From assembly GCA_949358305.1 (NCBI GenBank), contig OX442314.1, positions 27,575,118-27,639,117 of the forward strand: a stretch of DNA of 64,000 nucleotides, in the 5' to 3' direction. A program made the translations under genes and the position numbers. The first letter of the stretch is position 1; each line of letters opens with the position of its first letter. The notes under the pieces were generated by a model. The model saw nothing but the letters and a program-made list of their open reading frames with translations. It searched no databases and had not been told where the DNA came from. This stretch comes from Strigamia acuminata. Lineage: Eukaryota > Arthropoda > Chilopoda > Geophilomorpha > Linotaeniidae. Shown piece after piece: positions 5,882 to 57,505 of the stretch.

Positions 5882-6257
5882 TTAATTCGGTTTTTGTAGA
5901 TGTTGGAAAACCAGTTTTTCCATTTTTCTTGCAACACTCAATATTGACAGACCTAGTGATAAACTTAATATGTTTCCGATGTCACATATGAATGAGATAA
6001 GGTCGTATTGAAGCTGATCAATAAAGATTTGAATTTTGTTTGTAGCGAAATAATGGGCTATTAAACTGTACTCAGTATCAGTGGAGTATGTAGTATATTC
6101 CATGCTAGAGTACTTAGATTCTATGCAGGGAATGTGACATTGACATTCATCTTTTACATTTGTGTTGAGAAATGTCTTTTTGTAGATAGAATCAGCTGTT
6201 TTTGCCGATTGCGATGTGTTGCACATGGGATGTTGCAGTTGATCTATGTACAGTAAA
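5882..6257 (-). CDS. DEG/ENaC tandem gene, exon 11 (domain B C-terminus)
   Basis: Terminal exon, residues 667-791, acceptor TTTTTTTCTCTCCAG, phase 2. It has the ECQCHIPC motif (704-711), TM2 with CDIGNILSLSLGLSILS (GLS 769-771) and a short basic cytoplasmic tail ending at the stop codon. The conserved Cys lies 12 residues into the exon, exactly as in exon 6 and in the 57-kb copy. Confidence 0.9.
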
Positions 6258-9200
6258 CTGGAGAGAAAAAAATCTTGTTAGCCGTGATCCAGCGGGTTTG
6301 ACTGTTTTACAACTTTTTCTTTTTGTTTTTGGGTTAAATGTGTGGATAAATTCTTTTCAAAGTGAAGTGTGTGTGTGTGCTCTGTTACCAATACTAAATT
6401 GATCAGCCATTTTACTATTGGGATGGTTTCCTCTATGTGTATCGGTCCACAACATTAAATTAAGAATAGCATGGACCAATATACTTATAAAAAAGTGTTG
6501 GATGATTGTTATGCTTCAATTTGCAGATGATAAACTGCCTTTGACATAGATATTTCAGCAGAAAAATGATTCTAAACATAAAGTCAAGTCAATTGCTCAG
6601 TGTTCCAAACCCATCACATGTAGGTTTTGACTTGGCCGGCACAATCTCATACAAAATTTTGGTTATTGAAATTTGAAATGTATTGTTTAAATAATCAATA
6701 ATTATCTGAAGAAACCGTTTTTTTTTAGTGGTTTTTTGAATGTGGTGCTAAGCTTTTTCTGCCGGCCTAACTCACTTGAGGCAGTTAGCGTGGTGGCCCA
6801 ATTCACTTGTGCCAAGTTTTGCAAATTCAAATGGTCATAACTTTTGGCCCATTTAAGTTAAAATTTCATTTTTTTTTAAAAATAAAGCCCAATGTTTGTT
6901 CTATAACTTGCTTTTATTTATTTTGATTAAAAACATTTTTTAGGGTTCGAATTTTACGATTTTATTTTTTGCAACATCAAAAAATACATGCGGCCTAATA
7001 CACATTGGTTTGGGTAGTACTTATGTTGTTGCACAGTGGGTTTATTTGACTAGTAAAAATCTTAAGAATAAACAAGTAAATATTAAAGCTGGTTTAAGAA
7101 CTTTTATATTTAGAAGAGCATGAGTGTAGATGTGAATACTTGTACAGATATACAATACTACATACCGGCATGTTAATTTTTCATTCAGCTTTTTGCGGTA
7201 ACATTGTTTTTTGCAAACATAGAATTCATTTGATGGCATACATTTTCGTATTGGTGTATTTATGCAGTAAAACTATAAATAATTTTTAAAAAAATATTTG
7301 TCAAGTTATTTTGTAAATAATATGCAAGTAGTTGCATTCAAAAAATGATGTTTTAATCGGAATTTTCGTTTTTATTTTTGTATTTTTTAACATCATAGGA
7401 TTTAAAACTCGCGAAACATCAACACGCAATGAGAGACTGACATGTTCCCTCGTGGTTTTCTCGATTTTTAATGTTCAAATACCAATATTTTTTTGTGCGA
7501 CCCATTCTACCCATAAAAATCCTCGCTTGGCTTTCACTGCATAAAAGCAGTCCGGAAACTTAAAATCAACCAAGCATTATTTTTTTTGTACCACTAAAAT
7601 GCACTCTTTTCTAAGTACTACGCAATAGTTTTTGTTACAAAATTAATCAATTAATACGTTCGACTAAAGTAGTAGATTATTTAAGTTGTCGCACCTTGAT
7701 CATGTTATACGCAACACCTATTACAACTCCATCTTCCATTGGTAGTAATATGTTTGAAGTTAAATCCAAATCTTGGTCTTCTTTTGAAGTTGCGAAAAAC
7801 TTAATGATACATGACAATCAATTAACATACTAAACTAGTTTTATGATTAAAGTGCTCTTTTACCTGGTAGTAATGGTGGCATAAACTCAATGAAATAGTC
7901 GGGTAAATTGTCACAATTTTTGTGGCCAGGCCATTGAATGGTACTTCGTCTAGAAAGCAAAAACGATTCACTCAGATAATTGACATATAAAGAAAGTCGG
8001 GTAAAATTATTTTATATATATCATCAAAAGAAGCCTAATGAAACCGAAAGTCAAATCAGAGATCGGAAAATGTCGAAAGCATTTTTTCTGTAATCAACGA
8101 TACAATAAATGATTATATTGAGGTGTTTGTTTCCTGTCCTGTGTCATTCGATGGCATGAGGTGTAACTGTGTACAGTATCAAACAGCATGAAATTATGGC
8201 AATCATTTGCTGTATAGCATGGGTAGTTAGGTTTAGTGAAAAATTGCTAAACATACCAGTAAAGTATTGTGTACAAACTCCGCTTGAGGTATTTATTTCA
8301 ACCTCTGAATACTCTCCCTACAAAAAAGAGAATATTATTTGTAAATTAATTAGTACAGTAGGTAAAAAAAATTATTCGCCCACCCTGTGAAATTCTGAAA
8401 CCATATAGCCAAAATTATTCAACTTTTAGTACAACAAACTTGCCAATTTAGGTGTTCAAATTTGTCAATTTAGGTGTTGAGTGGGAACAAATAATTGACA
8501 ACAAACCCAATTTTAAGCCTTTAACATTTGCAGAACTCTAGCTATAGTAAACATTTGAATTTGTGTTGCAAAATAATTATTCGCCCCTTTTATAGTGTGA
8601 CTACTTCTTGATCTAATAAAGTCCTGATTCAGGGGGTGAATAATTGATTTGTTGTTCAAATTAAAATTGTTACTATACGGCTGGAGTTCTAGAAATGTTA
8701 GAAATTTTTTTTTACCGTTTATTTGTTTCCAGATTTAACACCTAAATTGGCAAGTTGTTGTCCTAAAAATTAAATCATTATGGCTAATTGTTTTAGAATT
8801 CCATCGTGTATGAATAATGTTTTTACCATTGTAATTTACATAATCCAACTTACTGCAAATACAGTTACACTGTCTGTATTGTAAGATATTTCCCATAGTT
8901 TTTCTATTGTGAGCTTTTTTTCTTTCAGCAGAAGTAGACTTAATATATGGATGGGACAATCACTTTGACTCAGATTATTTTCCCCAGCATATGTCTTCTC
9001 TAACTTCATAATACTCTTATCCAATACACAAGCTGTTATGTTTGGAAAGCTTACATTTGCTTCGTCTAAGATTGCAGTACTGATCCGTATCGGATAGCCC
9101 ACGTAAGTATTAAATTTGAAGTAGATCATAATCAAAAATAGAGAGATGCAACCGAGATGAACAACTTTTTCCAATAAGTTTTGAATACGACTACGGCTGC

Positions 9201-12200
9201 AAATTGGCTCGTTTTGTAGCAGTAGAGATGAGAAATGGCGTTTATTCTTTCGGAGATAACAGCATATTTTGGCGTGAGTTTTTCTACCGTTCCATGATGT
9301 TGCATTACGTTTTTGATAATTGATAATTAATATTATCAAATCCAAAACTGAAAGTATTGACATTCCTAGGTAAAGGTTAACGTTTCCAGCTGCATCAATG
9401 AGAAGATTGAGAAACTCATAAGCAAATCTTTCTTCAACAACATGAATGATATTTGACTCTGCTTCAATCTCGCGTTCAAGCCATGGGGAATCTGATGTCA
9501 TAACTGTGAAGGATTTTAACTCTTCTTCTATTTGAGTACACATTCGGTTACATGAGCAATTTAATTCTGTGTATATGTTAGCTAGTTTGTGAGTAATGCG
9601 CTCGTACAGGTCTCTTGTATCAATTGAAGTATTGCACATGTCGCCTGTTTTTCCACTCATAAATGAAAACCTGTATTTTTAAAGAATTAAAAATTATTTT
9701 GCCAAGTTAATGTGTTTGTCGGTATTTTGCTTGGTCTAACATGCTTGTATTATTTTGGGATTGTTGTTGGGAATTTATGATCAGTCAATGCCACCAGGGC
9801 GACGTATATCACACGATGGATGGTTGATAGTTGGTTTCTAGGTATCACTGGCTGTATAAAACTCAATCAAATGTCGTGCAGAACTGTTTAGCTGCCGAAG
9901 GACAACACATCGACCAACTACTTAAGTAATATCTAAAAACCAACTACCAACCCATTTACCCACACTTCCTCTCACCCAATTATTATCCCGGTGATCAATA
10001 ATATGCGCAATATTTGTACGCGCGACATGTAAGAATAATTCTTACACCCGATGTCGGTGTGTTTACGAAGATCAGTCCTCGTGGAGAACACAACCATTCA
10101 CCGAGCGCGCCCGACATTGATCGCAGAAAGTTGGTCAGTGCTTGTAAACGTCTGGCGAGCGAAACAACCCTTCCTCAGCGCGGAATTTTTGATGATCAAA
10201 GTGCGCTACATCCTGATGGAGCAGAGTTAGTGTCGTTCGGCGAAATTGAGAGTAGTATGTCCTATCGTCGTAAACATTCGCAACCACCAATTCCGCAAAC
10301 GCCTGAAGAATTTGATGAATTGTTGAATCAGCATCCCGTCCAAGCGACAACAATCAACTCACAAATTTTTTATCGTATTACTCTACGCCCAGATAATGGC
10401 GGAATTTTAATTGTGTTTGTTTCTGATGGTTTGTTGCAGGCTTTAGGTGCGTCGAATACTTTGCAGATTGATGGCACGTTCAAAGTTGTGCCCGGCATTT
10501 TTCACCAGCTGTGCACGCTCCATGCACTGGCGCACGACTATGTGTTTCCCGTTGTATACGCGCTAATGTCTCGAAGAAACACAATCGCATACACTGCGCT
10601 GTTTACCTACATCAAACAACTGGTGCCAACATTGAACCCGGAAGTCGTCATGTCGGATTTTGAAACCGCAATTCAAAATGCCGTTGCCTCTTCGTTTCCA
10701 AATGCGAGAATTGCGGGTTGCTTTTTTCATTTTTCGCAAGCTGTTTGGAAGAATATTCAGCAGCTTGGTTTGCGCAACGAATACGAAAATAGCATTCGAT
10801 GCCATAAGGCCATGCAAATGTGCATGGCTTTGGCATTGCTGCCCGTCGACGCAATGGCCGCTGGCTTACTGAGTATTCGGAATTTCTTGAATTTGAACAA
10901 CATTGCCACACCGCCATTCACTCGTCTGCTCCGATACATTGAAACATTTTGGTTAGGAAGAGTCACGGCACAGCGTTTTTCAGTTTTCGGGATGATACGG
11001 CGGACAAATAACGATGTGGAAAGTTTTCACAGCACGTTGCTAAAACGAATTGGGCTTGCTCATCCGAATGTTTGGCAATTTCTTCAGAAGCTGCGACAGG
11101 TCGAGCTGTCTACACGTCAAGATTTCGTTCGTGCCTCTTCGGGTCTCAAGGTGAGTCGGCTTCGAAAGAAAAAATTTGTTCTGAGCAACAAGCACATCAT
11201 TGCTGCGCAGGATAAATTAATTGAACGTCGTATTACCGTGGCGGAATACTTGGAGCAAGTTGCGCATCATGTTCGCGAACCCCCATTAGTAACTCAAGAC
11301 GTAGTTGATAATTCACCGCCGGGTTCGCCGCCCGGTTCGCCGCCCGGTTCGCCGCAGGGTTCGCCGCCCTTTTCGCCGCCCGTTTCGCCGCCAGTTTTGC
11401 CGCCAGTTTCGCCACCCGTTTCGCCGCCCGTTTCACCCATTGGACGTACATTACGGAGTGTCCGAGGTAGGATGGCAGCAGCAAATTCACCACCACCCGC
11501 AAATCCAGCGGTTACGCAGCGTGGACGAGGACGAGGGCGAAGGCGAGGGCGAGGGCGAGGGCGAGCGCGTGGGCGAGGACGAGCTTCGGCAACACTGTAA
11601 AGTTTTTGTGTTCGTTTTTTGTCACATTTTCTTATAAGTTAAATAAATAGTTTCAATTTTTTCAAATTTTTCGATTTTTGTCAATTTTTTAAGTTTTTTC
11701 GATTTTTGTCAATTTTTTAAGTTTTTTCGATTTTTGTCAATTTTTTCGAGTTTTCAATTTTTTTCGATTTTTCTTCAAATTCGCGTTTTCTTAATTTCGC
11801 GTTTTCTTTTTTCTAAATTTTTTTAAAATTTTGCTGCATTTCGATTCGCGATTTCTTTTTTCGCGATTTTATTTTTCGCGATTCCTTTTTTCGCGCCTAC
11901 TTCGATATGAAAAAACAAATCCCGATTTTCGCGATTCATTCTTTTCGCGCTTTCTTTTTTCGCGATACATCCGCCACCCCATGTCGCGCATATGAATAGC
12001 ACTGCCATGCGTTACTGCAATATCGCCCGTTATGAAACATTTAACTTAAGATATCTAAAATAAGTACTAATTTGATGGTGCTCTACAACTTTGTAATTGG
12101 AAAGTTTGCTGTATCTTAAACGGTTTAAAAGTTAGCAAGTGAATGACCTTGAAAATGACCTTCAAGGTCAAATTTGATGATGTCATTGGATTGCTCTCAC

Positions 12201-14888
12201 CCAACTTCCTATACGATCGCTTCATCAAAGTTGGCCTAGATGCAATTGCTCAGGAAATATTTGGAGGGAACCAGACTTTTAGGACACCCTGTATAAAGTG
12301 ATTCCTTACCTGCAAACTTGCTGACTGTAAAAATTTTCAAGGCATTTCTTGTGGCAATTGGTGAAATCCTTTTGATCAATGCATGGATTAGATGGAGTAT
12401 TCAAAAATTTGAACTAAATAATTACATACAATTACATACTTTAGAGACTGTCATTTCACATTTCAGCGAATATTCAAAAAAATAAATGTATTTAATTTTA
12501 ATAATGAAAATTTGAATACATTTATTGAAGAAATTTAGTACTCTTGCAGTAGAAATCTTAGTTTAGCCACAATAGCTGGCTTTGGTTCAGCTTATTTGTT
12601 TTCATTTTAAAAAGAAAACATTTAACTTGAGATGACTTATGCATGGTTCACACTTGAACCACTTATGTAGAAGTGTGACTTTTAGAAAGTCTAATTTCTA
12701 CAAGTGTGAATTTGACTGTTCACACTTATTCATTAGTTATGTAGAAATCAGTGATACAATAATGCAATAATGCTGGTACATTAATTTATTAGGGCTAACT
12801 TACACACTGAAAGGTAGGGGTTTGCATTTCAACTTGCAGCTAATGAACCATTAAAGATAGAAACCTCTGCTTTTTTTTAAAAGAAAGACAGGTGTTTCCA
12901 GACTTTTGACTCACCCTGTATATATATTTTGATAAAGGGGCCCCGAAAAAATCTCAAGCCCTGGGCCCCCAAAAAGCTATATCCGCCCCTGAATACTCCG
13001 TTTACATGCATGGAATATTTTGAATGAGATGAAATATTCCGTGTGCACACTGTCATGTAAACAGGGATGACAAGGATTATTCGAGTCGTGAATAATCACT
13101 CACAGAAGGTCGTTTAATTCGAGTAAACTCGAACTATTTTTATTGCGCATGCGCACATTGCTTCCTGTTTAGTGCCATTTCCTGTTAAAGTCTTAAGTAA
13201 AGTTAATACAATATACACATTCTCCATTTTATTGATGAGGAATAGGTAAATGTGATCTGGTTTCCTTTTTTCACAAAAATATATCACTTCAGGTTTTAGT
13301 TAAACCTGGAACTTCCTGTTGTGATCACAAATTATTTTCTGCAAGTAAACTCAACAATTTGATTTTTTCACCACTGAAATTATTCACCACTCAAAATATT
13401 CGGTGCATGTAAATGTAGTATAAGCGGGACATAAAATATATTTATAGTAGTATTATTTTTGATTATTGTTGTTAGAACTAGCTAATCCAGTTCACAGAAC
13501 TAGATTATTTTATCTAGTTTCAAAACTGACAAGCTAGCTTAGGATAAGCTAGTTGTGTTCGCACTACATTTATACAACTAGTTATAAAGAGTTAAGCTAG
13601 CTTAACTTTGTAGTGCGAACGGGGTATAAAGATGTTTCATAGCAGCTATAGTCTTAGGAGCCTGTTGCCCACGGACGGTTTAGTGATGGCTTTTGTTAGA
13701 TTTTATTGTTGTAAATTGTCATTAGTTCAACGTTTTGTTAGAGGTTATAACGTTTGCGACACGTTACGCGCGTGTCATTTTATTGTTGTAAAAACTGTTT
13801 TCTGAAGAGTAAAGACATGTTATTTTCTGTTCCGTTAACGTGTGGTCTTTCATTTGATTTGGACATTCGAAATACAACAGCTTTCAGGCAGTGTCATGTC
13901 CCTTTCTCCATCGTCCTAGGTTTTACATTGGAAACCACAACTGTAAAATAATGTGATACGGGTAAATACCTTTCGTAAACTAAATTTACTTCTTATTATT
14001 TGATTTGAGGACAAAGGAACTAATTCTGTAGATAAACCTGGAATAGGTGATGACATCTACAAATTTAATAAATTTTAATATTTGAAATTTGTTTTTTCCA
14101 TTATAATTACTATATATTTACGTAAAGGATGCCTGGGTCACAGAATATTGGTTGATTGAACCACATTTTAAATTTACCGAATATGTTTTGTCCCTTAACA
14201 TTTTCTAGGAAATATGAAATGACTCTGTAGTACCACTGAACCATTTAGATATATTTGTATTTATACAGATCATAGCTTACCAACTGTTATCACAACGGAG
14301 GTTCCACAAGTGGACAATTCGTTTTTTATTTGAATATTTGGTTTGTTCGTTGATTTCTGTAAAAACTCTGCTGTTTTATATTTCAGTTGCCAAAATAAAT
14401 TGAGCTTTCTTTACCGAAATAAATTCAGTTTTGTTTAAAACAGAAGAATCGATATCCCATAATGCAGACATGTTGACATTCCCATTTTCAATTAATCTCA
14501 TTATGTTGTTAGCACAATCGCCTGCATTTGCTGGTGTTGAGTTTAAAATATTTTTCCACGCATATCGTGTGTATGTGTTTTCAGACATGCATACCTTCAA
14601 AGCTGGGAATGACATCTCAGTTTCATCACTCGTGTACGCATCAGTAGTGATGGGGTTTGAAAAGAAATATTTGATTTTCTGCCCAGTTTGATAGCAACAG
14701 GTTGCAAGGCAGCTCATTAAAAGTAAGCTCCAAACAAACTTGATTTTAATGCCTTTTGTGGGATCAATTAACGTTTGTATTTCAGGAAATGAATCCTCAA
14801 ATAAGAAAAGGCGTGGCATTTGTTGTTGTATAATTTTACGGAGTTTAGACTTTACCGCAGCTGCATTCCTTTTCCTTGCAATCCTCAT
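5882..14888 (-). CDS. Tandem (concatenated) DEG/ENaC channel gene, 11 exons, 791 residues
   Basis: Exons on the minus strand: 14888-14415, 14356-14281, 14204-14122, 14056-13970, 12413-12310, 9670-8854, 8317-8257, 7949-7864, 7799-7695, 7272-7166, 6257-5882. All introns are GT-AG, the phases agree at every junction, and the total of 2376 bases is 791 codons plus stop. The product has two DEG/ENaC domains. Domain A: TM1 about 50-68, FPALKVC 94-100, Cys-rich ectodomain, TM2 about 369-393 with GMS at 377-379. Domain B: TM1 about 441-461, FPNITAC 483-489, TM2 about 753-776 with GLS at 769-771. The 47-residue linker should be cytoplasmic, as both ends of a normal subunit are. DEG/ENaC subunits normally have one such domain and form trimeric, Na+-permeable channels. 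The N-terminal His-Gly gating motif is not evident in either domain. The ligand is unknown. Exon ends are inferred by eye. Confidence 0.85.
7166..7272 (-). CDS. DEG/ENaC tandem gene, exon 10 (domain B Cys-rich exon)
   Basis: A 107-base exon, acceptor ATTTATAG, donor TGCCG|GTATGT, phase 0 to 2. It reads FYCINTPIRKCMPSNEFYVC..., with C-x3-C then C ten residues later, typical of the ectodomain Cys pattern. Same length and phases as the exon at 57505-57399. Confidence 0.85.
7695..7799 (-). CDS. DEG/ENaC tandem gene, exon 9 (domain B)
   Basis: A 105-base phase 0-0 exon, reading ...DLDLTSNILLPMEDGVVIGV... up to the donor ATCAAG|GTGCGA. The acceptor (ATTAAG) has a weak pyrimidine tract, so the exact start is less certain. 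Counterpart of exon 4. The preceding intron is 64 bases. Confidence 0.7.
7864..7949 (-). CDS. DEG/ENaC tandem gene, exon 8 (domain B)
   Basis: An 86-base exon, acceptor TTGCTTTCTAG, donor TACCAG|GTAAAA. In phase 1 to 0 it reads DEVPFNGLATKIV... A second open frame also crosses this exon. I chose the phase that joins both neighbours and equals the phase pair of exon 3. Confidence 0.65.
8257..8317 (-). CDS. DEG/ENaC tandem gene, exon 7 (domain B)
   Basis: A 61-base exon, acceptor CTTTTTTGTAG, donor TTACTG|GTATGT, phase 0 to 1. It reads GEYSEVEINTSSGVCTQYFT, similar to the family's 'G-x-C-x-x-F' ectodomain motif. It is the counterpart of exon 2. Confidence 0.8.
8361..8827. mobile_element. MITE with ~90-base terminal inverted repeats
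   Basis: The left arm (about 8361-8460, starting GGTAAAAAAAATTATTCG) and the right arm (about 8735-8827, ending GTTTTTACC) are inverted copies with moderate divergence, including the shared segments GCCAATTTAGGTGTT and AACACCTAAATTGGC. No coding capacity is visible. It sits in the intron between exons 6 and 7 of the DEG/ENaC gene, and its right end is 26 bases from exon 6. I could not fix a target duplication. Confidence 0.65.
8854..9670 (-). CDS. DEG/ENaC tandem gene, exon 6: end of domain A fused to start of domain B
   Basis: An 817-base exon, residues 275-547, acceptor AAATACAG (phase 2), donor TTTGCA|GTAAGT (phase 0). In one uninterrupted frame it holds the NCSCNRMC motif (312-319), TM2 of domain A with GMSILS (377-382), a 47-residue linker, TM1 of domain B (441-461) and FPNITAC (483-489). 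The linker contains no methionine, so domain B has no start codon of its own here. The first half matches the terminal exons at 6257-5882 and 57091-56677. The second half matches exon 1, including the phase-0 donor after the 'LW-D/E-I' segment. Confidence 0.9.
10002..11600 (+). CDS. MULE transposase with FLYWCH remnant, about 530 residues
   Basis: Mutator-like (MULE) transposase. Numbering from 10014: the end of a FLYWCH-type zinc finger (GEHNHS, His at 26 and 28); the first catalytic Asp in LQIDGTFK (153); the second in VVMSDFETA (215), followed by GCFFHFSQAVWKNIQ; the catalytic Glu in NNDVESFHS (336). The C-terminus has a Pro-Ser-Gly repeat and an Arg-Gly tail. The frame is open but has no ATG near its start: it opens after a TAA at 9999-10001, so the 5' part of the finger is missing or lies in an upstream exon. 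The element lies inside the DEG/ENaC intron between exons 5 and 6, on the opposite strand. I could not define TIRs or a target duplication with confidence. Confidence 0.85.
   Translation, partial: YAQYLYARHVRIILTPDVGVFTKISPRGEHNHSPSAPDIDRRKLVSACKRLASETTLPQRGIFDDQSALHPDGAELVSFGEIESSMSYRRKHSQPPIPQTPEEFDELLNQHPVQATTINSQIFYRITLRPDNGGILIVFVSDGLLQALGASNTLQIDGTFKVVPGIFHQLCTLHALAHDYVFPVVYALMSRRNTIAYTALFTYIKQLVPTLNPEVVMSDFETAIQNAVASSFPNARIAGCFFHFSQAVWKNIQQLGLRNEYENSIRCHKAMQMCMALALLPVDAMAAGLLSIRNFLNLNNIATPPFTRLLRYIETFWLGRVTAQRFSVFGMIRRTNNDVESFHSTLLKRIGLAHPNVWQFLQKLRQVELSTRQDFVRASSGLKVSRLRKKKFVLSNKHIIAAQDKLIERRITVAEYLEQVAHHVREPPLVTQDVVDNSPPGSPPGSPPGSPQGSPPFSPPVSPPVLPPVSPPVSPPVSPIGRTLRSVRGRMAAANSPPPANPAVTQRGRGRGRRRGRGRGRARGRGRASATL
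11320..11600 (+). repeat. In-frame tandem repeats at the MULE C-terminus
   Basis: Repeats of a 12-base unit (TCGCCGCCCGTT and variants) encode PPGS/PPVS steps at about 11320-11440. From about 11518 GGGCGA-type hexamers encode an RG-rich tail. Both are low-complexity and probably length-variable. Confidence 0.75.
11640..11980. repeat. T-rich simple repeats
   Basis: Repeats of TTTTTCGATTTTTGTCAA (11665-11760), then of TTTTTCGCGATT (about 11840-11970), directly after the transposase gene. No gene is visible. Confidence 0.7.
12310..12413 (-). CDS. DEG/ENaC tandem gene, exon 5 (domain A Cys-rich exon)
   Basis: A 104-base exon, acceptor AATTATTTAG, donor TTTGCAG|GTAAGG, phase 0 to 2. It reads FKFLNTPSNPC...FTNCHKKC...QQVC. 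It aligns with exon 10 (FYCINTPIRKC...YVCKKQC...LTC), differing by one codon. Confidence 0.85.
12640..13640. repeat. Short foldback repeats in the intron between exons 4 and 5
   Basis: The 1556-base intron contains small palindromic elements. One is around 12645-12730, where TTCACACTT and AAGTGTGAA alternate. Another is at 13555-13620, with arms TTCGCACTACA and TGTAGTGCGAA. Two stretches (near 12258-12300 and 12890-12925) share a mariner-like 'CAGACTTTTGNNTCACCCTGTATA' pattern. No exon is visible here. Confidence 0.5.
13970..14056 (-). CDS. DEG/ENaC tandem gene, exon 4 (domain A)
   Basis: An 87-base phase 0-0 exon, acceptor AAATTTGTAG, donor CGAAAG|GTATTT. It reads ...IPGLSTELVPLSSNQII..., resembling the family's hydrophobic 'GL.L.L' stretch. 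It corresponds to exon 9 of domain B. Confidence 0.7.
14122..14204 (-). CDS. DEG/ENaC tandem gene, exon 3 (domain A)
   Basis: An 83-base exon, acceptor ATTTCCTAG, donor CTTTAC|GTAAAT, phase 1 to 0. It reads ENVKGQNIFGKFKMWF... Its phase pair and near-identical length (83 against 86) match exon 8 of domain B. Confidence 0.7.
14281..14356 (-). CDS. DEG/ENaC tandem gene, exon 2 (domain A)
   Basis: A 76-base exon between the acceptor TTTTTACAG and the donor GTTG|GTAAGC, phase 0 to 1. It reads ...NELSTCGTSVVITV, the region around the first conserved ectodomain Cys. It matches exon 7 of domain B in position and phase. Confidence 0.75.
14415..14888 (-). CDS. DEG/ENaC tandem gene, exon 1 (domain A: N-terminus, TM1)
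   Basis: Residues 1-158: a basic cytoplasmic N-terminus, TM1 at about 50-68 (KFVWSLLLMSCLATCC) and the post-TM1 motif FPALKVC. The ATG at 14888 is the first in-frame Met after an in-frame TAA. An upstream non-coding exon joined at the nearby AAACAG acceptor is possible. The donor is TTTCG|GTAAAG, phase 0. The next intron is only 58 bases. Confidence 0.85.
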
Positions 14889-16257: not shown

Positions 16258-16646
16258 CACCCGACCCCATGCCCAGCATAGTATTCAAGTAGCCTTGATG
16301 CCCAGCTCCCACTGGGATCAGCAACTTAATTGCTTAGTCTCAGTGCCATTCCTAACCTTGGCTTGTTACGATATTTAATCCATTTAGTGTTATTTCTATG
16401 GCAATTTAACTTAGAATATTTTTCTTCATTTCTCTAAATAACTTAAAATATTTTCTCCATTTGTCTAAATAACTTAGATATTATTTACTTTATATGTTAT
16501 TTACTTTATGATTTTGGATAACTTAATGTTATTTAATTTAGAGTTTTATTTTGTCTGTAATTTGAAACCAAAGGTTAACTGGGTCAAAAAAGACCCATCT
16601 TAGGAGTCTAAAGGACATAGACCCAATGCTGTGTGTTGATGAAATA

Positions 16647-17235
16647 TATATAAAATTGATCTAAATTTATATAAAATTGATCTAAATTTATATAAAATTG
16701 ATCTAAATTTATATAAAATTGATCTAAATTTATATAAAATTGATCTAAATTTATATAAAATTGATCTAAATTTATATAAAATTGATCTAAATTTATATAA
16801 AATTGATCTAAATTTATATAAAATTGATCTAAATTTATATAAAATTGATCTAAATTTATATAAAATTGATCTAAATTTATATAAAATTGATCTAAATTTA
16901 TATAAAATTGATCTAAATTTATATAAAATTGATCTAAATTTATATAAAATTGATCTAAATTTATATAAAATTGATCTAAATTTATATAAAATTGATCTAA
17001 ATTTATATAAAATTGATCTAAATTTATATAAAATTGATCTATATAAAATTGATCTAAATTTATATAAAATTGATCTATATAAAATTGATCTAAATTTATA
17101 TAAAATTGATCTAAATTTATATAAAATTGATCTAAATTTATATAAAATTGATCTAAATTTATATAAAATTGATCTAAATTGTTATAAAATTAATCTAAAT
17201 GTTTATAAAATTAATTTAAATGTTTATAAAATTAA
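16647..17235. repeat. 21-base satellite (about 28 units)
   Basis: Near-perfect head-to-tail copies of ATATAAAATTGATCTAAA(TTT). Two shortened units appear near 17035-17090 and the last copies (17170-17235) degenerate. It has no spacers, so it is not a CRISPR array. Confidence 0.95.
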
Positions 17236-19199
17236 TGTAAATGTTTAAATGCGGCAGCCATCTTTGTTGTGGTCAAAACATGTGTTTGCCAAATTTCATT
17301 GTAATCCAGTAGAGCCCGGATGTTAGGCATGCGCAGAATCTGGGCCATTTTATGCCCATCTTAAGGAGAGAGGGAAAACTAATCCATTCGGGTTGGAAGG
17401 GTTAACCTACAGCCATTAATTTCTAGATTTCCGCTTGCCCCCAAAACCGTCAGTGATGTAAAGTAATGTGTTTATTGCAGTTGCTAGGCACCAAATGCCT
17501 ACAATTGTTACTCTGCAAGGTTAATAGTTTCACGTAGTATTGTTGCATATTAGCAGCACTTAAGCCTAGCTTTAATTTAGATGTTTTTGATATATAACAG
17601 CGCTAAAGACACATTAAAGGTTCAGTATTAATCAAATTTCCCGTACATGTTGACAAAATCATTACAGGTGCTCAGTTAATGCATGTTTGCAGCTAAACCT
17701 GTCAACACCTGCTAGTAAATCTTCTCGAATCAAACTACAGTATTCAATTTTTAAATCCAAATTTATAATTTTCAGAAGTAAATTTTAACAGCCGAAGGTG
17801 ACATTTCACATCTGCTCTTATCTCGACAGCAATTTCTACTTCGACATTTTTCTGGAAGCGGCAATCAATCCAAGGTCAGTTCTTAGGGCACGTGCCAAAA
17901 ATTGCTTTACAAGTTCCTAATGCTTTTATTTCACCCCTGTGGTTGCAAAAGATATTTCATTGATAAGTTTCAAGAAAACAAAAATAAATAAAAATACCGA
18001 TAAATAAATTTTTTAAAAGAAAACTTAAAAAATTTATTTATGTTTGCTGAAACCGGAACTGTAATTTTGTACCAAAAACAAATTAAAATCAATAAAATTA
18101 TTTTATTGACAATGTGGAATTTTGAGCTATAGATGGCGCTACACTCTACTTGCGCAGTGCGCAGTCACGAAATGTGGACCAGATTTTTTTATTTCAATAT
18201 TCTTTTTAAATCATCATCTTTTTGTGTGTGTCTCAGGGTGTTTGTGTGTAGCCAGTGATGTGAAAAGACACAGGTGTCATTCGAGTGCAAGACGCCACAA
18301 CAGTCACGCCAATGTGGCTGAGTAAATGATGGGACGCCGACACCTGTGGATGGAATCAAATGAGCGCCACACCGCTACAGGTTGAAAGAAATCACGATCC
18401 TTGACGTGATACACAGGTGTTGGATTACTTCATGACCCATAATTATTTCGCATTCCATCCTCAGTTTGATTCATTGGACGATGAGGATGATGAGATTGAG
18501 CTCCCTGATATACGCTTAAAAAAATATACAGAGATTGGATATAGAAACAAATATATAATATAACAACAAACTGCGAAAACATGCATTCATTCATTTAAAA
18601 ACAGAAAGAAAAATGCACGTCTTTGACACGTGGTCAGTATTAAAATTTGTGCATTTGGATCACACATGAGGTGAACTTTGACACGGCGTCTGGAAAAAAA
18701 TAAACACAAAAGGGGAGTAAAAAGATACCACCCTTGTCAAGACGCAAGACACATTCTAAGATACGAGACGCATTTTCTTAAGACTGGTTTTGGTGCGTTC
18801 TTGAGTATAGAGGATTGGGTTGAATTCTCCATTCACTTACAACAGGATTTTCGGGGGCCAGGGTCTCAGCCAATGTGTTTTTGCACCTCCCACATCCTCC
18901 TCTTTTTTGCCCTCGAAATCCGGTCAGGGCATGTTGAGACCAGCTCGTGCGAACGATGGCCATCATCAACGTTTTTTAGGCTTAAACATGTGAGCTAATC
19001 AGTTTCAAATGGCAACTTAATAGTTGCAAATTGCTGTGTGCAGTAGAATGCCGATTACCCACATGGTTTTAAAGTGTATAGAATTTGAAGGAATTAAGTG
19101 TGTTATTTGTACAGTAAATAATGCATTTCATATCAAGATTTAAAAAATGCATTTGCAACCAATAGCATGCATTTTTGCAAAATCCAATGCATTTCAAAA
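17236..19199. other. Intergenic, no supported gene
   Basis: No coding sequence is supported. A CTCF-like core lies at 18131. Confidence 0.5.
18131..18139 (+). promoter_or_regulatory. CTCF-like core AGATGGCGC
   Basis: Context CTATAGATGGCGCTACA resembles the core of bilaterian CTCF sites. Sequence match only. Confidence 0.35.
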
Positions 19200-20437
19200 T
19201 ACCGTATTTCACCAAATAAGAGCCGCGGCTCTTATTCAAAGCGGGCACTCTGAGCAACGGCTCTTAATCGAGGGCGGCTCTTATTACCATAATTTGATTG
19301 GAATTTCAATTTTTTCATTGAAATTTCACTTTTTTTTAATAAAATTTCACTTTTTTCCCATTGAAATTTCACTTTTTTCATTAAAAATTCACATTTTTCC
19401 ATTGAAAAATCACATTTTTCCATTGAAAAATCACATTTTTCCATTGAAAAATCACATTTTTCCATTGAAAAATCACATTTTTCCATTGAAAAATCACATT
19501 TTATCATTGAAAAATCACATTTTTCCATTGAAAAATCACATTTTTCCATTGAAAAATCACATTTTTCCATTGAAAAATCACATTTTTCCATTGAAAAATC
19601 ACATTTTTCCATTGAAAAATCACATTTTTCCATTGAAAAATCACATTTTTCCATTGAAAAATCACATTTTTCCATTGAAAAATCACTTTTTTCCATTAAA
19701 ATTTCACTTTTTTTTCATTGAAATTACACTTTTTGTCATTGAAAATTCTCTTTTTTCCCATTGAAATTCACTTTTTTTCATTGAAATTTCACTTTTTTTC
19801 TTTATAAATTTCACTTTTTTTCCATTGAAATTTCACTTTTTTCATTAAAATTTCACTTTTTTCATTAAAATTTCACTTTTTTCATTAAAATTTCACTTTT
19901 TTCATTACAATTTTATTTTTTAGTAAAATTCTAATTTTTTCCATTGAAATTTCATTTTTTTCATTAAAATTTCACTTTTTTTCCTTTGAAATTTCACTTT
20001 TTTTCCATTGAAATTTCACTTTTTTTTCATTGAAATTACACTTTTTGTCATTGAAAATTCTCTTTTTTTCCATTGAAATTCACTTTTTTTCATTGAAATT
20101 TCACTTTTTTTCTTTATAAATTTCACTTTTTTTCCATTGAAATTTCACTTTTTTCATTAAAATTTCACTTTTTTCATTAAAATTTCACTTTTTTCATTAA
20201 AATTTCACTTTTTTCATTAAAATTTTACTTTTTTCATTCTACAATTTTATTTTTTAGTAAAATTCTAATTATTTTCCACTGAAATTTTCCTTTTTTTTAA
20301 AATTTTCTATCTAAATAACCATCATCATCGACGAATTTTTCATTAACCGTTTCCTGTTTGGTTACAAATTATTTCAAACTGCCTCTCTGAGGCGCGGCTA
20401 CTATTCGAGGGCGACTCTTAATTAATAAAATACGGTA
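19200..20437. mobile_element. TIR element (TACCGTATTT...AAATACGGTA) filled by a 21-base array
   Basis: The ends are inverted: TACCGTATTT with AAGAGCCGCGGCTCTTATT near the left, and GGCGCGGCTACTATTCGAG...AAATACGGTA at the right. The interior is a tandem array: 21-base units CATTGAAAAATCACATTT(TTC) at about 19392-19690, then shorter CATTAAAATTTCACTTTT units to about 20280. A smaller relative lies at 26072-26308. Non-autonomous; superfamily not assigned. Confidence 0.75.
19392..19690. repeat. 21-base tandem array inside the TIR element
   Basis: About 14 nearly identical units. Because 21 is divisible by 3, all three frames on both strands can stay open, giving spurious heptapeptide-repeat ORFs. 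Confidence 0.95.
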
Positions 20438-24169: not shown

Positions 24170-24916
24170 TCAATTTCTATGGTAAGGATGAACCCTGCCT
24201 GCATATTTTATATTCGTTTTAATAGCACAAGGAGCCTTGCCAATTCCGGACTTTTGAGTTGTCACTTGTTGCGATTGCGTAGGAGGTCCTTGAGGTCGTT
24301 GCATTCCAGTTCCAGGTGTCATTTTAACCTGACTGTCTAGACCTTTCCCGAGATAAACAGCACTAACGAGCAAATTAGTATCCGATAAAGATGACGTTCG
24401 TGCCATACAAGAACTGGCGCCCGATTTACTGTCCCAATCATCTCTAGCGACACGAATAAGCTCCAAAATGGCGTCGCAGATTTCATTTGTTTCTGCGACT
24501 AGTTTGTAACCCGCATCCAGCGGCGTCTGATTACATTTTTGAATTAATTGCTGTTCCTCCGCTTCCACCTCTAGATCAGCTTTGGTTCGTAAATAATCCG
24601 GCACAACTTCGTGGCTAAAAATGTTTATTCGACCCTCGGTGAGATTCATTAGTTCGTCGTCTCTGTTCTGCGTAATGTGAATTGGCAATGCAGTCAAATT
24701 ACGCAGGATTGGCGCTTTTTCGCTTTTCACAATTTTCATCAAGGTCTTCATTTGCCCAGAAAAAAGCATGAAATTGTTCAGTACGGTCGGCCAACTAAGT
24801 GTTTCGTGTTCGTGTTCAAGTTTGTCGAGAAAAGCGAGGATGGAATTTTTCAAATCCGCCACACGCAGGATCAAGTTATCCAAAAAGGTGTCCAAGATTT
24901 TCTCTTCTCTCTGCAT
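24170..24916 (-). CDS. MED8: Mediator complex subunit 8
   Basis: 248 residues. MED8 is part of the Mediator head module, which links transcription factors to RNA polymerase II in the nucleus. Recognised from MQREEK at the start, VADLKNSILAFLDKLE (19-34), SWPTVLNNFMLFSGQM (41-56), FSHEVVPDYLRTK (100-112), the conserved DTNLLVSAVYLGKGL segment and the C-terminal AIKTNIKYAGRVHPYHR. The frame is open further upstream, but the start at 24916 fits the conserved MED8 N-terminus, and the upstream residues look like untranslated sequence. An intron after ATGCAG is possible, because that sequence also forms an acceptor. Single coding exon otherwise. Confidence 0.93.
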   Translation of the reverse strand: MQREEKILDTFLDNLILRVADLKNSILAFLDKLEHEHETLSWPTVLNNFMLFSGQMKTLMKIVKSEKAPILRNLTALPIHITQNRDDELMNLTEGRINIFSHEVVPDYLRTKADLEVEAEEQQLIQKCNQTPLDAGYKLVAETNEICDAILELIRVARDDWDSKSGASSCMARTSSLSDTNLLVSAVYLGKGLDSQVKMTPGTGMQRPQGPPTQSQQVTTQKSGIGKAPCAIKTNIKYAGRVHPYHRN

Positions 24917-25386
24917 TTCAATTTGCACAAATAATAAACACGAAATTATAATAAAACCCTCTTTCAGTCTCTCCAGATTGAAAATGAATGATTGTACTTT
25001 ACAATATACATATATATATACGAGACAAAAAGTGGCACGCATTTAATACGGGACAAAAAGTGGCACGTATTTAATACGTGCCCGAAAATCACTAAAAACT
25101 CTTTAAACTCATAAATCGAACTTCTGATAGTTTCTCAGATTTATTTTCTATAGTAAAAACGCTTATTTAGCATTATTTCTTAATATTTTCCTTATTTTTC
25201 TGGTTTTTCCAACCTGTTTGCATTGTCACGTGGCAACAAGTGTGTTCAATCGCATACCGGGTGTGTATTGTGTATACAGCGCCCAACCATAACGACAACA
25301 AGTGACTTTAAGAGTTAAATTGACATACGGCGAGGCAAGGGGTCAGTTTCCTCGCTAACCCCCTCCCCAGGTAACTTTCCAACAGG

Positions 25387-26576: not shown

Positions 26577-27400
26577 CTACCACGGACGCCAAACAGGTGC
26601 GCGGCTGGTCTGATGGTGAAGTGATTCCTTGTGCGACATGAGGACGGCCAAGGAGGCGTAACCGGTGGGCAGAACGTAGTCCGTCGGCCTGTGCGGCGGC
26701 GTAACGGTGCGTTGTGGTACGGGATGTGTGAGTGTGTGCTCGGGGATGGAGTCGGTATCACAAATGGGGGTCGAGCAGCTCCGCGGTGACGGAGGGGGCG
26801 TCAGGGAGGACGCGTGAATCAAGTCCAGAGACGGTCTCACGGGGTTGACACGTTTCGACAAGTGGGTGAGAAGTCGAGCGCGAACACCCGTGTCGAGTCC
26901 GGGCATGTTGCCCAGACAGGCGGCCACTTCGCCGGCGCATTCGCTGTAGCCGGCGCAGAAGTCGGTGGCGTCGGTTCGTCGCGTGGACACGACGACGCGT
27001 CGTTGTTGGCGCAGTTCTCGCAAGTGTCGGACTGTCAGTTCGAGAATGTCGGCTTTTTCGAGCTTGGACGGCTCGCTGATGTCGTTTTTGTACGTCTCCA
27101 CGAGCAAATCTTTTAATTCGGTCAGGCAGTTGTTGATACGTGCACGACGTCGTTTTTCCAACAGCGGTTTGATTACCTGGAGAAGAAAAATCAAAAATAT
27201 TTAGAAACACGTTCAAAAATCATCGAAATTTAAGTTAAAAAAATTATTTTTTTGGTTTAAATTGTTTAAATTGTTTAAATTTGGAATTAAAAATTTACCT
27301 TTCTGTATTCGGAGGCTTTGGTGACTCCTCGTTCGGCGATAACGGAATTGATTTCGGCTTCGACGTCGTTGTAGACGTGCATGTTGTTGCAGGTATCCAT
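26577..27400 (-). CDS. Hairy/E(spl)-type bHLH-Orange repressor (Hes), 2 exons, 233 residues
   Basis: Exon 1 is 27400-27299 (34 codons, MDTCNNMHVYNDV...SEYRK, donor AGAAAG|GTAAAT). Exon 2 is 27176-26577 (acceptor TTTCTTCTCCAG), both phase 0, with a 121-base intron. bHLH at about 31-89, with the Pro typical of the family in the basic region (KPLLEKRRRARIN); Orange domain about 107-144 (YSECAGEVAACLGNMPG); terminal WRPW (230-233), which recruits Groucho/TLE. Hes proteins are nuclear DNA-binding repressors and usual direct Notch targets. The promoter has a TATA box and two CSL sites facing each other, and the 3' UTR has two K boxes. Orthology to a particular Hes/E(spl) member cannot be set from the sequence alone. 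The exon order and splice sites are clear. Confidence 0.95.
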
Positions 27401-30028: not shown

Positions 30029-30102
30029 TTAGAAATAAATCTCAAATCTGAACTTGTGATCTCTCAATAAGATAACCCAAATCGTAGAATTACCGAAAGA
30101 AA

Positions 30103-33100
30103 ATGTCAGACAAAGACGAGCAATCCACGTCTGAAACCGAGCAGAGAATGCCCGAGAAGGGAAAAAGGACCTCCGACTACCACCTGAGATCGGATGGTCC
30201 CGTCCCTGAAATGTCCGCAAAGGCGAAAGCCCGAGCGAATAAAAGGAGAGCGAAGGCGCAGAAAGAGGAGCAAGCTGCATCGCTCGCGGCCCTAGACGGG
30301 CCAGAGCGAGAGCGGGTTCCCTTGAATATGCAACCCTTCGAGGATACCGATCCGGAAGCCATAGAAAATCGAGAAGAAATTCGCGACGTATCGCCAGGAC
30401 GAGTATCGATATTGATGACCGAGGAGACGAATGAAGCTCCGAAAATAACGGTCACGGTCGGCACGAACCCATCGCCACCCACGGCTCAGACGTCCGTGGA
30501 GCAAACCCCACGAAAAAACGACGGCGGGACCCCGATAACCCCCCGAGTTACGGCGAGTCCTGCGGTTGTTTCCTTCGAGGTATCTCACCTAATTCGGTTG
30601 ACACGGCAAGCTGCCCAACTGAAAGCGATGATAGACATTCCAGTAGGAACGTCAGTCTGGGAATCGATTACTCTACTCACTGACGCTATCTGCGCGGCAC
30701 AAGCCCCGACGCCGGTCGCAAGACCAGCAGCGGAGACGCCCATGCCCCAGGTAACGCCCAGTGACACCGGAGGTTTCGCGCCAGACCCCAACCGGGCACT
30801 TCACCAATCCAGAGAGAAGGCCCGCGAAGAAGCCAGACAAGAAGCGACTAATCGCCAACGAAGACTGAGCGCAGAGCGGCGAGAACTCTGGAAGGAAGAG
30901 GAAGAAAGGGAGCAACGCGAAAGAAGAACCACCGAGAGAACAGAAAAACTGGTCCAAAAAATGAGGGAGGAACGAGAAGCTAAAATTCGAAAAGAATGGA
31001 ACGCCACGGTGGAAGGGCGACATCGAGAAGCTCAAGAGTACGAGGACCAATTTCAAGCGCTCGTAGCTCAAAGAAAAGCAGAAAAGCTACAAATGTTGCG
31101 AGAAGAAGCCATTTTACAACACCAAAAATGGGAAGAACAACATCGCGAGAGGTTGAGAGAAGAGGAAGCCAGAAAAGAAAAGGAACAGTTCCTGAAAGAG
31201 AAAGAGGAATGGGACCGAGTCAGATGGACCGAAGAGTACAAAGCAAAGAAACAAGCCATAATAGATGAGCAAAAAAGATGGGAAGCCGAAAACTGGGAGA
31301 AAGAAACAGAAAAGTTCCAAAAAGAGTACGAACAAGGTGTCTCGGGCAGGAAGAAAAGGGAAGAAAACCCGAAACGGAAGTCAGAACCCCCAAGCGGCTC
31401 TGATACCGACACAGGAGAAGATGCAGCAAAGCCGGCAAAAACGGCAAAAAGGGGGAAATCTCAAAAGAGAGACGGATCGGTCCCAAAAACAAAGGACCGT
31501 CACCCCTCAAAAAGATCCGAGACGGGAGCAGCCATCGACGCGTTACTCGAAAAGAAAAACGCAAATAAAAATCGGGAACGCCCCGAGAGCGAGGAAAACA
31601 GATGGCATTCTTTTTGCGAGAACAACGACGGAGGGGAGCCGCCGCCATCCGAAGGCTCGAAACAGAAGAAGGCTGGCGGAGAGACCCCACCGAGAGGGCC
31701 GAGGTTTCACCCCCAAGGAGATCCCTCCGAGCCCTCCGATTCGTCGGACGACGACCATCCGAGTCGACCGTCTACAGGAAGGAGTCAAGAAGGCAGCGAT
31801 GGGCACCGGTCGAACCGGCCGAATGCTTCAGACCGCTCTTCCCGGAGCTCCAACCCTCGTTCAGAGGAAGGGAACTTTCAGGACTCATCTGGCCGACATT
31901 ACACGATGTCTGAGCTAGGCCGAGCCCTGCTGAACTCTTTCAGAAGAGAAGGAATCGATCTAGGCCATCCAGGCGACGAACATAATCGCGCTGGAGAGAG
32001 GGTTAAGCGCAAATATGGCGTACGAAACGAACCAAGCAGTGAAGCCACGGGTAACATCCGCTGGCAACACTATATTCAAACGCGATTTGACGGTTCGTGG
32101 AAGGCCGGAGACCGCTTCCTGGACGAAGTAATGCGTATCAAGAAAGCGACAAAAGCCACCGTCGCCGACATGCTAACCCACGGGCTAGTGGAGCTAACTA
32201 CGGGGTCAGCTCGAGAATGGTACCAGGGACTGAAAAACCCAACCTGGGACGATTTTCTCGTCCGTTTCGATCTCCGATACGGCGAGACTCCAGACGAGAT
32301 CAGTAACAAATTACGGGGTCTACGACAAGCCCCAGGAGAAACATTAGCCGACTACGACGCCCGAGCGAAACTCCTGTTTGCAAGAGCGCCGTACGAAATA
32401 AACCCCGCTGGTTTTACGATGATCTTTTACGGAGGATTATCGGCCCACTCGCAAAGAATTCTGCTAGACATGCGTGCACCCCGCACTGGCGATTACCAAG
32501 ATGTCAGTAACTATCTTCTAACAAACACGTTAGAAATAGAACAGCGGTATTACGCCACTCTGCCCCCGGAAGAAGCTGACGCGCACGAGAAGCGGTTGCA
32601 GACGAGCGCCGAACGCCACAAGACCTCAGAAAAATTAATGAGGCCAAGTGAATATTTGAGCGGCATAATGAGTCTCACCGAAGCATCCTTCGGACGAATG
32701 CTGACGCCTAAAGCAGGCAGTATTCTTCCAGCCAACCCGATAGCTGCCCCAAAGAAAGCACCGGCAGCGACGGCGATGCAGGTGACCTCGACGGACTCCA
32801 CCCAGATGGAGAAAGTCGAAGAGACAACACCTCTCGCCACGGCTAAAGAAGAGGAGCCAGCATCGAGCGACGAGGAAGCCCTAAATGAGCACCTCGAAAA
32901 CTTATCGACGGGATGCGACGATCAAGGTCCCTATTTGCACCATGCACACCGGGCCTTGGCAATCACACAATTCAGAGCACACGTGCAAGCAACAAAAGCG
33001 AGAGGAGCATTGGGAGGAAAAAGACGATTCCCGACGCCCTTCGTCCCGAAAAAACCGGGATTCACTCCCACAGGGGATAAAAGTAACATCAAATGTTACA

Positions 33101-33243: not shown

Positions 33244-33261
33244 ATTCAGCTTCGTCTGCGC
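33210..33261 (+). promoter_or_regulatory. Element 1 -1 ribosomal frameshift signal
   Basis: Slippery heptamer A AAA AAC (33210-33216, gag frame GCA AAA AAC), a 6-base spacer, then a 9-bp stem GCGCAGGCG (33223-33231) with CGTCTGCGC (33253-33261), including one G-U pair. The gag stop lies in the loop. Pol is in the -1 frame and is open from the shift onward. Confidence 0.8.
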
Positions 33262-47466: not shown

Positions 47467-48316
47467 AGGTTGCATTTTATTGAAGTGAACTCTGTGATCA
47501 AGTGTAAAATTGAAAAATGAATTTTCTTGATTATTTTATATAGATATTATAATTAGAAAATTTCCGATTTTTCTCTATAAATTTACTGTGAAATATTCAT
47601 TTGTTTTCAAAAAATTCTCATTATCTTTTGGAAATATTTGAAGTCGAATTTTTGGATTATTTTGAAAACTCATTATAATTCCGAATTTCGTACAAAAAAT
47701 CTATTTTGATTTTGTTGAGTTTCCCAGAATATTCGGCTATATTCTGGAAAATTTTGAAACCCTAAATTTCGATCAAAAAACGATTTTGACCAGAATTTCT
47801 GCTAACGAAGGATAAAAAGTTAAAATATTTTATTTTACTGGTTGAAAACTTGACTAGTTTTCTATTGTTCTGTCAATGTTAGGAATTATGATTTTTAATC
47901 CCTGACAAGGTAAAGAATGTGCCAAAGAGAGCCACTCACGATGCAGCTCGGAGTAGGTCATCCAGATGTGACATTGTTGAGAATTTCGGATTAGAAATTA
48001 TCAGAAATTTTTCAACATCGCCAATCACAGCAGACTGTCTTGACAAAGGAGATTTTCCGGAAGCTAGTTTGACAACCAATATTCAGCCACACTTGCTTTT
48101 CGACAGTGCGACCATCCAGTTGTGCCTTTGTGACCAGTGCCCGTTTGGACCATTCTTGACCACGCAATAGGACAGTTTTTCCGAAGCCACTTCAGTTTCA
48201 GCAGCTAAGGTTGTATTTTTTCAAATTATTTCTTAGTTTAATATTAAGCGTGTTACATTTACGCTAGTTCAGTTAAAGTTTATTTTTTCTTTTGTACGTG
48301 TATTTCTTTGAGTATT
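47467..48316 (+). other. Element 2 leader
   Basis: AT-rich, 850-base untranslated leader between primer site and gag; likely packaging region. No supported gene. Confidence 0.5.
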
Positions 48317-50365: not shown

Positions 50366-50396
50366 TTCAGGGGGTTGTTCAAGTTGCCCAACCCCC
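50356..50396 (+). promoter_or_regulatory. Element 2 -1 ribosomal frameshift signal
   Basis: A AAA AAC (50356-50362), then the gag stop TGA. After a 7-base spacer comes a perfect 8-bp stem GGGGGTTG (50370-50377) with CAACCCCC (50389-50396) and an 11-base loop. Pol continues in the -1 frame without interruption. This is the classic retroviral arrangement. Confidence 0.85.
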
Positions 50397-56676: not shown

Positions 56677-57091
56677 TTAATATCTGGCATTTTTAACTCG
56701 AGCATATAATGAAAGGTTTGCACGAATGGTTATAAACTGATGAAGTATCTTTTGCAATAGTTCTGGAATTGCAAGAATAGAAAGGCCAAGCATTAGTGCG
56801 AAAGAATTTCCAATATCACAGCACAATGCAACTGTAGTGTAGGATAAAATTTGGGTAATCTCTTCAATTATGTTATTCGTTGGAAATATACCAAGAATTC
56901 TGACTGGGAGTGCGTCTGGATGTTGAAAGAAAACGTAAGTGTCAAATATTTGTTCTTCGCAAGGTGGATCACAACCACAATCTTTCGTCACATCAACTTT
57001 TAAAGAATTCTTCATAAATAGTTGTACCGAAGAAATTGCTTCTTCAGCATTTGCACAGGTGTTATTTGTTACATTGGGCAGAAATGGTAAC
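56677..57091 (-). CDS. Third DEG/ENaC subunit, terminal exon
   Basis: Acceptor TATAATTTTAG, phase 2, as in the tandem gene. It contains DCGCDPPC, and TM2 with CCDIGNSFALMLGLSILA, then a short basic tail and a stop codon. The conserved Cys is the 12th residue of the exon, as in both domains of the tandem gene. With the two exons just upstream it forms the 3' end of a separate DEG/ENaC gene. Confidence 0.9.
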
Positions 57092-57398: not shown

Positions 57399-57505
57399 TT
57401 GCATTGAACAAAATTATAAACCTTTTTTTCATAGCAATCATCTTGGCATCGTTTGTATTTGTTAGGGGCAAGGCAATGTTGAGCTCGCAAGTTTAATCGA
57501 ATGGT
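57399..57505 (-). CDS. Third DEG/ENaC subunit, Cys-rich exon
   Basis: A 107-base exon, acceptor TCTAATTTAG, donor TGCAA|GTGAGT, phase 0 to 2. It reads TIRLNLRAQHC...KRCQDDC...FVQC. Same length, phases and Cys spacing as exon 10 of the tandem gene. Confidence 0.85.

Follow-up and report, generated by a model that had tools for sequence, protein, structure and literature searches.

The 64,000 nt stretch of Strigamia acuminata DNA analysed here (the window; C1:27575118-27639117) carries on its minus strand, from 14888 to 5882, a gene of 11 exons that encodes two DEG/ENaC units. All ten introns are GT-AG with matching phases, and the coding length of 2376 nt corresponds to 791 aa followed by TAA. 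We built the gene model from open frames, splice sites and family motifs, independently of the original prediction, which had described 11 exons, 791 codons, two units, both gene ends and an exon 6 at 8854-9670; our model reproduced all of these, the comparison covering exon 6, both ends, exon number and length. The features of this gene, and of the fragment of a second DEG/ENaC gene in the same window, are as follows.

14415..14888, minus strand: exon 1, with the start Met, N-tail, TM1 of unit 1 and the start of ectodomain 1 with FPALKVC; Pfam ASC 1.7e-9
14750-14694, minus strand: TM1 of unit 1, hydropathy peak at aa 47-65
14281..14356, minus strand: exon 2, ectodomain 1; phase 0 in, 1 out
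14122..14204, minus strand: exon 3, ectodomain 1; phase 1 in, 0 out; weak donor
13970..14056, minus strand: exon 4, ectodomain 1; phase 0 in, 0 out
12310..12413, minus strand: exon 5, Cys-rich part of ectodomain 1 (PCIDQKDFTNCHKKC); phase 0 in, 2 out
8854..9670, minus strand: exon 6, the fused exon, with TM2 of unit 1, linker, TM1 of unit 2 and the start of ectodomain 2
9322..9378, minus strand: TM2 of unit 1, filter GMS, hydropathy peak at aa 373-391
9181..9321, minus strand: linker, aa 392-438, 47 residues; 11 K/R, 1 D/E, no stop, no Met
9121..9177, minus strand: TM1 of unit 2, hydropathy peak at aa 440-458
8257..8317, minus strand: exon 7, ectodomain 2; phase 0 in, 1 out, like exon 2
7864..7949, minus strand: exon 8, ectodomain 2; phase 1 in, 0 out, like exon 3
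7695..7799, minus strand: exon 9, ectodomain 2; phase 0 in, 0 out, like exon 4; weak acceptor
7166..7272, minus strand: exon 10, Cys-rich part of ectodomain 2; phase 0 in, 2 out, like exon 5
5882..6257, minus strand: exon 11, with the end of ectodomain 2 (CQCHIPC), TM2 of unit 2, a short C-tail and TAA; Pfam ASC 1.5e-9
5989-5933, minus strand: TM2 of unit 2, in exon 11, filter GLS, hydropathy peak at aa 757-775
57399..57505, minus strand: Cys-rich exon of the second gene; phase 2 out; borders tentative
56677..57091, minus strand: last exon of the second gene, unit-2 type; Pfam ASC 8.1e-8

A generic splice matrix scores several of the sites poorly (donors down to -2.6, acceptors down to -3.7), and support for the small exons therefore comes from phase, homology and the matching layout of the two units. 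Inside intron 5, on the opposite strand, a 532-residue open frame (10002-11600, plus strand) contains a MULE transposase domain (4.2e-15).

Each unit exceeds the Pfam ASC (PF00858) cut-off of 23.6 bits (47.1 and 53.5 bits), and the four hydropathy peaks give each unit a TM1, a large Cys-rich ectodomain and a TM2. An FPxxxxC motif follows TM1 (FPALKVC in unit 1, FPNITAC in unit 2), a CxCxxxC motif precedes TM2 (CSCNRMC and CQCHIPC, respectively), and a GxS motif lies within TM2 (GMS and GLS). These three motifs are usual for the DEG/ENaC family. The HG motif before TM1 is absent from both units, which have TKG (unit 1) and HLG (unit 2) in its place; we do not take HG as defining the family because PDPNaC1, a proven member, is likewise reported to be without a canonical HG (PMC12714832). 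The gene also departs from the usual DEG/ENaC trait of one unit per chain, since it has two. One unit per chain is usual rather than defining, and the gene is a variant of DEG/ENaC.

The two units are only 18.8% identical to each other (66/351 positions), no closer than each is to PDPNaC1 (23.2% and 22.6%); among unit 1, unit 2, PDPNaC1 and BRTNaC1, identities range from 18.8 to 25%. Judged by sequence, the two halves are thus old, unlike paralogue types and not a fresh duplicate. BRTNaC1 and PDPNaC1 (centipede; PDB 8ymr series, 9jf7) are the best PDB matches for both units: unit 1 aligns to PDPNaC1 from before TM1 to the end of TM2 (query 44-390, E 2.3e-14), and the best match of unit 2 is BRTNaC1, in the C-terminal part (E 4.1e-12). 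Searches of the full chain and of unit 1 against 5.8 billion protein sequences gave no match, nor did a search of exon 6 against prokaryote genomes and viral contigs. The exon structures of the units correspond closely. In an alignment made without regard to introns, four of the five intron positions in each unit fall in the same column and the fifth is off by one, and the phases (0, 1, 0, 0, 2) are identical in both units, such that exon 6 looks like the last exon of one copy joined to the first exon of another. The known gene differs in this respect: that of PDPNaC1 is reported to have nine exons and one unit, whereas here there are six exons per unit, one of them shared.

Exon 6 stays open in one frame from 9678 to 8839, confirming the original claim that TM2 of unit 1 and TM1 of unit 2 share this exon with no stop between them; the claimed absence of a Met between the units also stands, there being none from residue 378 (in TM2) to residue 456 (inside TM1 of unit 2). 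No other 47-residue window of the gene's protein exceeds the linker in basic charge, as expected of a cytoplasmic loop. An open linker of 47 codons is by itself weak evidence, since in the gene's introns 464 of 5528 windows of this length are open and 122 of these are without ATG. Codon statistics do not single out the linker as coding: its score is low, undercut by just four of the 186 windows from CDS and by 15 of the 65 open windows from introns, in a test that hardly separates the two classes. We considered the charge of the linker as proof of coding and dropped it, since open non-coding windows also reach +10 (105 of 464 in introns, 89 of 3219 in intergenic sequence). The linker shows no resemblance beyond chance to the unit-1 N-tail (333 of 1000 shuffles were equally good), and an AlphaFold2 prediction of exon 6 with two relatives was discarded (mean pLDDT 38.7). 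Two sites in exon 6 could shorten transcripts: an AATAAA at 9246, in the linker, and an internal donor at 9055 (GCAAAT/GTAAGC, score 3.1), in the unit-2 part of the exon.

Our search for further fused exons used the window's own genome (237.5 Mb, 157 contigs), and its results weigh most in the case for the fusion. A Pfam search of this genome gave 93 scored matches of 2096 candidates, and one of 14 control genomes, Thermotoga maritima, also matched. The fused TM2-linker-TM1 exon is found in at least 258 places in the genome, including that of the window gene, on nine contigs (C1, C3, C4, C5, C6, C8, C9, C11 and C50). This number is the union of searches with three queries, namely exon 6 (at least 142 matches), L062 near the window (at least 150) and L045 on contig C4 (at least 146), of which 134/142, 149/150 and 144/146 matches, respectively, entered the union, partial matches being left out; it counts places, some being identical copies, and the best ~150 candidates were scored per search. 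Among the 142 matches listed for exon 6 are exon 6 itself, 33 with 61-84% identity over nearly the whole exon, two with 46-49%, 96 with 22-32%, and 10 fragments or broken copies. We fetched 20 of the distant fused exons, and by eye every one of them carries TM2, linker and TM1 in a single frame. The distance from GxS to FPxxC is 91-118 residues (median 99) and the net charge of the linker is +1 to +14 (median +7) in the 49 of 57 loci readable by a motif script; these 49 include L091, which is the same place as L055, and an open stretch from L032, a locus with a stop at another position, and the eight misses are L014 and L025 (stops), L016-L018 (identical copies) and L042, L046 and L060 (motif not fitted).

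No in-frame stop interrupts the matched stretch in 247 of the 258 places. Stops are present in the other 11, and some copies of the family are thus decaying. Fused exons with in-frame stops lie at C11:3666494-3727953 and C8:3387588, three of them ~18 kb apart; they are decayed and perhaps part of a larger repeat. On C4, three identical fused exons ~13.4 kb apart (L016-L018; C4:3023084, 3036449 and 3049798) may be recent tandem copies or an assembly repeat.

The closest relatives of exon 6 indicate how the fused exon has been maintained. From the 30 best matches we took the 25 intact, non-identical exons, leaving out three with stops and two identical ones. Their linkers are 40 to 49 residues long and all open, with length changing by whole codons, and five of the 25 have a Met in the linker. 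A phase 2 acceptor is present in 24 of the 25 and a phase 0 donor in all 25, with a lenient donor search; 21 of the donors are GTAAGT. The window gene likewise has a fused exon open in one frame, with a phase 2 acceptor and a phase 0 donor. Across 12 disjoint closest paralogue pairs, dN/dS is 0.63 in the linker (95% 0.41-0.96, the upper bound being near 1), 0.59 in the TM2 part of the exon (0.44-0.78) and 0.42 in the TM1 part (0.31-0.59). That the lowest value is in the unit-2 part makes it unlikely that the second unit goes unused as a general rule, a possibility that the original prediction had raised.

To count the units per gene, we ordered matches to the first and last exons of the window gene (at least 150 each) together with the fused exons on each strand, using 135/142 fused, 148/150 first and 145/150 last exons. 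Among the matches listed, complete first-fused-last triplets surround 85 of the 135 fused exons, with runs such as FXEFXEFXEFXE; of the other 50, a scored last exon is missing for 20, a scored first exon for 11, and both for 19. The matches listed also include four first-last pairs with no fused exon between them and a single fused-fused adjacency (C6:5297473/5287123), which could equally well reflect a missed exon or a third unit. Direct reading of 10 kb of C11 showed the order fused, last, first, fused, last. Where the listings are complete, the first-fused-last order thus indicates two units per gene. One-unit genes seem to exist too: at L002 and at L005, first and last exon are no more than ~2 kb apart, and the open frames listed for the interval include no fused exon.

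The DEG/ENaC fragment at 57 kb in the window is probably the end of a second two-unit gene. The fused exon nearest to it lies ~22 kb upstream, outside the window (C1:27653489-27654040), with Gypsy-like sequence between. We had considered this gene, together with L063, L064 and L078-L084, as one-unit genes, and rejected this reading on finding a fused exon upstream on the same strand (at most ~22 kb away) in nine of the ten, the tenth being L084, which may be of either kind; the upstream fused exon was read directly for L063 and L064, and the remaining cases are by position alone. The idea that unit 2 is the sister of a one-unit gene was dropped along with the one-unit reading of the 57 kb gene.

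The two halves of the fused exon appear to share a history. TM2-half and TM1-half distances of the same 47 exons are strongly correlated (Mantel r 0.978; reached by 0/300 permutations), indicating that the halves evolved together. In a tree of TM2 pieces, from which two shortened pieces were left out, all 22 unit-2-type last exons form one clade (support 0.979) that excludes 31 unit-1 and six other pieces, although these 22, which include two identical pieces and L084, were chosen by similarity to the unit-2 last exon, which favours clustering. On the unit-1 side, 28 of the 31 pieces fall in one split, with support of 0.39. We infer that the simplest reading, which the sequence comparisons favour, is a single ancient fusion that joined two unlike subunits and preceded the expansion of the family.

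The pore motifs of the two units also differ. In PDPNaC1 the pore reads D-I-G-G-S376-L-G378, then G382-A-S, and it is G378, not the GAS tract, that is reported to set selectivity (PMC12714832). At the place of G378, with positions counted from the alignment with unit 1, the window gene has Asn in unit 1 and Ser in unit 2; a G378S change in PDPNaC1 is reported to make the channel more sodium-selective (PMC12714832). The second Gly of the pore Gly-Gly is replaced in all 22 unit-2-type TM2s compared (Asn in 20/22, Ser in 2/22), such that none of them keeps Gly-Gly. By contrast, unit-1 TM2s have Gly-Gly in 16/26 and Ala-Gly in 10/26, in a comparison that omits nine loci lacking a TM2 piece. These differences suggest two seats of different kind.

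We propose that the gene encodes a 791-residue chain of two unlike DEG/ENaC subunits, derived from an old fusion, that fills two of the three seats of one channel, and we put the probability of this reading at roughly 60%. A unit-1-type gene would have been fused to a unit-2-type gene, last exon to first exon, and the product would then have multiplied and diverged. One mRNA would yield the 791-residue chain, unit 1 followed by unit 2, with a basic cytoplasmic linker of ~45 residues joining the two. Four TM segments would span the membrane, probably with both chain ends inside, and the two units, side by side, would occupy two of the three positions in one channel. Either a one-unit subunit or a unit from another chain could fill the third seat. 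Linkage would fix a 1:1 pairing of the two unlike subunits. At the level of gene and family, the idea of a natural concatemer put forward in the original prediction is supported by the 258 or more fused places, the kept splice phases, the constraint on the linker and the co-diverging halves.

The stoichiometry question raised in the original prediction is real: DEG/ENaC channels are known to assemble from three separate subunits, a number that linked pairs do not fill evenly. A rather unlikely alternative to our proposal is therefore that the two units of one protein sit in different channels, either because three chains bridge two trimers or because one unit stays outside the pore in a spare or regulatory capacity. 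A linker of ~45 residues would be long enough for either arrangement, and the difference in pore motif (Gly-Gly in 0/22 unit-2 versus 16/26 unit-1 TM2s) would fit unequal roles; however, purifying selection acts on both parts of the fused exon among close paralogues, and the window gene has intact unit-2 exons. It is scarcely credible that the gene is an assembly or gene-model artefact or a lone decaying pseudogene: the short exons with weak splice scores, the MULE element inside intron 5 and the stops in 11 of 258 fused exons could be read in that way, but fused exons lie on nine contigs with the same phases and a constrained linker, and the window gene has no stop.

Two further alternatives would separate the units at the level of the mRNA or of the protein. 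Processing of the mRNA, by splicing inside the linker, early polyadenylation or an internal promoter, is quite unlikely. The AATAAA at 9246 is compatible with it, as is the finding that 14 of 19 conceivable GT-AG pairs at least 50 nt apart in the TM2-TM1 interval would introduce a stop; weak linker sites could be used, since donors and acceptors in use elsewhere in the gene score down to -2.6 and -3.7, respectively, and in Drosophila llz and CheB42a a DEG/ENaC gene is reported to share a transcript with its neighbour (PMC2827562). Nonetheless, the linker has no positive-scoring donor, and the window gene has no Met from the pore motif to the middle of TM1, although five of 25 copies have one in the linker. 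Separated units, moreover, would need neither the linker frame kept in the 25 close copies, nor length changes by whole codons, nor dN/dS below 1. Cleavage of the linker by a protease, giving equal amounts of two subunits from a polyprotein, is highly improbable: the basic linker is probably exposed in the cytoplasm, and equal dosage of unlike subunits would explain why the fusion has been kept for so long, but the nearly fixed length of the linker is not demanded by a cut site alone. We favour a single chain with both units in one channel.

Known channels offer partial parallels to such a chain. BRTNaC1 and PDPNaC1 resemble the units of the gene in length per unit, Cys pattern and TM2 filter, but are described as having one unit per chain, PDPNaC1 assembling as a homotrimer (PMC12714832, PMC12804983). 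Engineered ASIC concatemers also place DEG/ENaC subunits in one chain (PMC4529235, PMC10329638, PMC12617345); those described are man-made and mostly of three or four subunits, whereas here the chain is natural, with two unlike units and a basic linker of ~45 residues. An engineered two-subunit ASIC1a chain is reported to have given currents with a pH0.5 (PMC4529235, Table 2), and engineered ASIC trimers are reported with 19-residue synthetic linkers (PMC10329638). By these reports, the length of the linker in our gene is no obstacle. ASIC1a tetramers have been claimed (PMC4529235), which would let two chains fill a pore; PDPNaC1 and crystallized chicken ASIC1 are described as trimers (PMC12714832, PMC4529235). 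Linked DEG/ENaC subunits have so far been a laboratory tool; here the linkage is natural, old and much multiplied, and a natural two-unit chain makes DEG/ENaC stoichiometry directly testable. In K2P and TPC channels, fusion or duplication fixes two subunits per chain, and two such chains complete a fourfold pore. Two DEG/ENaC units, by contrast, do not divide a trimer, making this a rule-breaking case of how fused subunits evolve where the seats are not a multiple of the units linked. Among the papers listed in our search of the open-access full-text literature, which covered linked or tandem DEG/ENaC proteins, myriapod members and expanded families, none describes a natural two-unit DEG/ENaC/ASC family; public databases may contain predicted proteins with two ASC domains.

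Spider mites have a large lineage-specific DEG/ENaC expansion, which we liken to the two-unit family by description; its proteins are not known to carry two units. For insects and mites, a chemoreceptor role of family members is reported as shown or suggested (PMC7738191), and arthropod DEG/ENaC members are reported to serve chemoreception (PMC7067487). From this literature and the size of the family, we guess at a sensory role. It is possible, if doubtful, that the family forms a repertoire of some hundreds of sensory channels, each with an obligate heterodimer chain that brings a variable pair, a pore-typical unit 1 and a pore-altered unit 2, together with a shared one-unit third partner or a few such partners. 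The shared third-seat partner would then be like a common co-receptor serving many tuning receptors, and expression in sense organs would make this a new kind of receptor repertoire.

The remainder of the window contains other genes and repeats. On the minus strand are MED8, in a single frame (24170-25042; Pfam 9.2e-66), and a gene for a Hairy/E(spl)-type bHLH protein ending in WRPW (26577-27200). Gypsy-type retroelements lie at 30088-37346 and 48248-53022 (gag-like and RT/RNaseH/integrase by Pfam) and, by eye, at 62231-64000. A 128-residue frame and a 112-nt repeat each occur twice, at 46152-46691 and 53849-54388, flanking the second Gypsy element; these are perhaps its LTRs. Lastly, minisatellites with units of 20-21 nt are found at 16642-17242 (29 copies) and 19293-20306 (45 + 30 copies, in overlapping rows).
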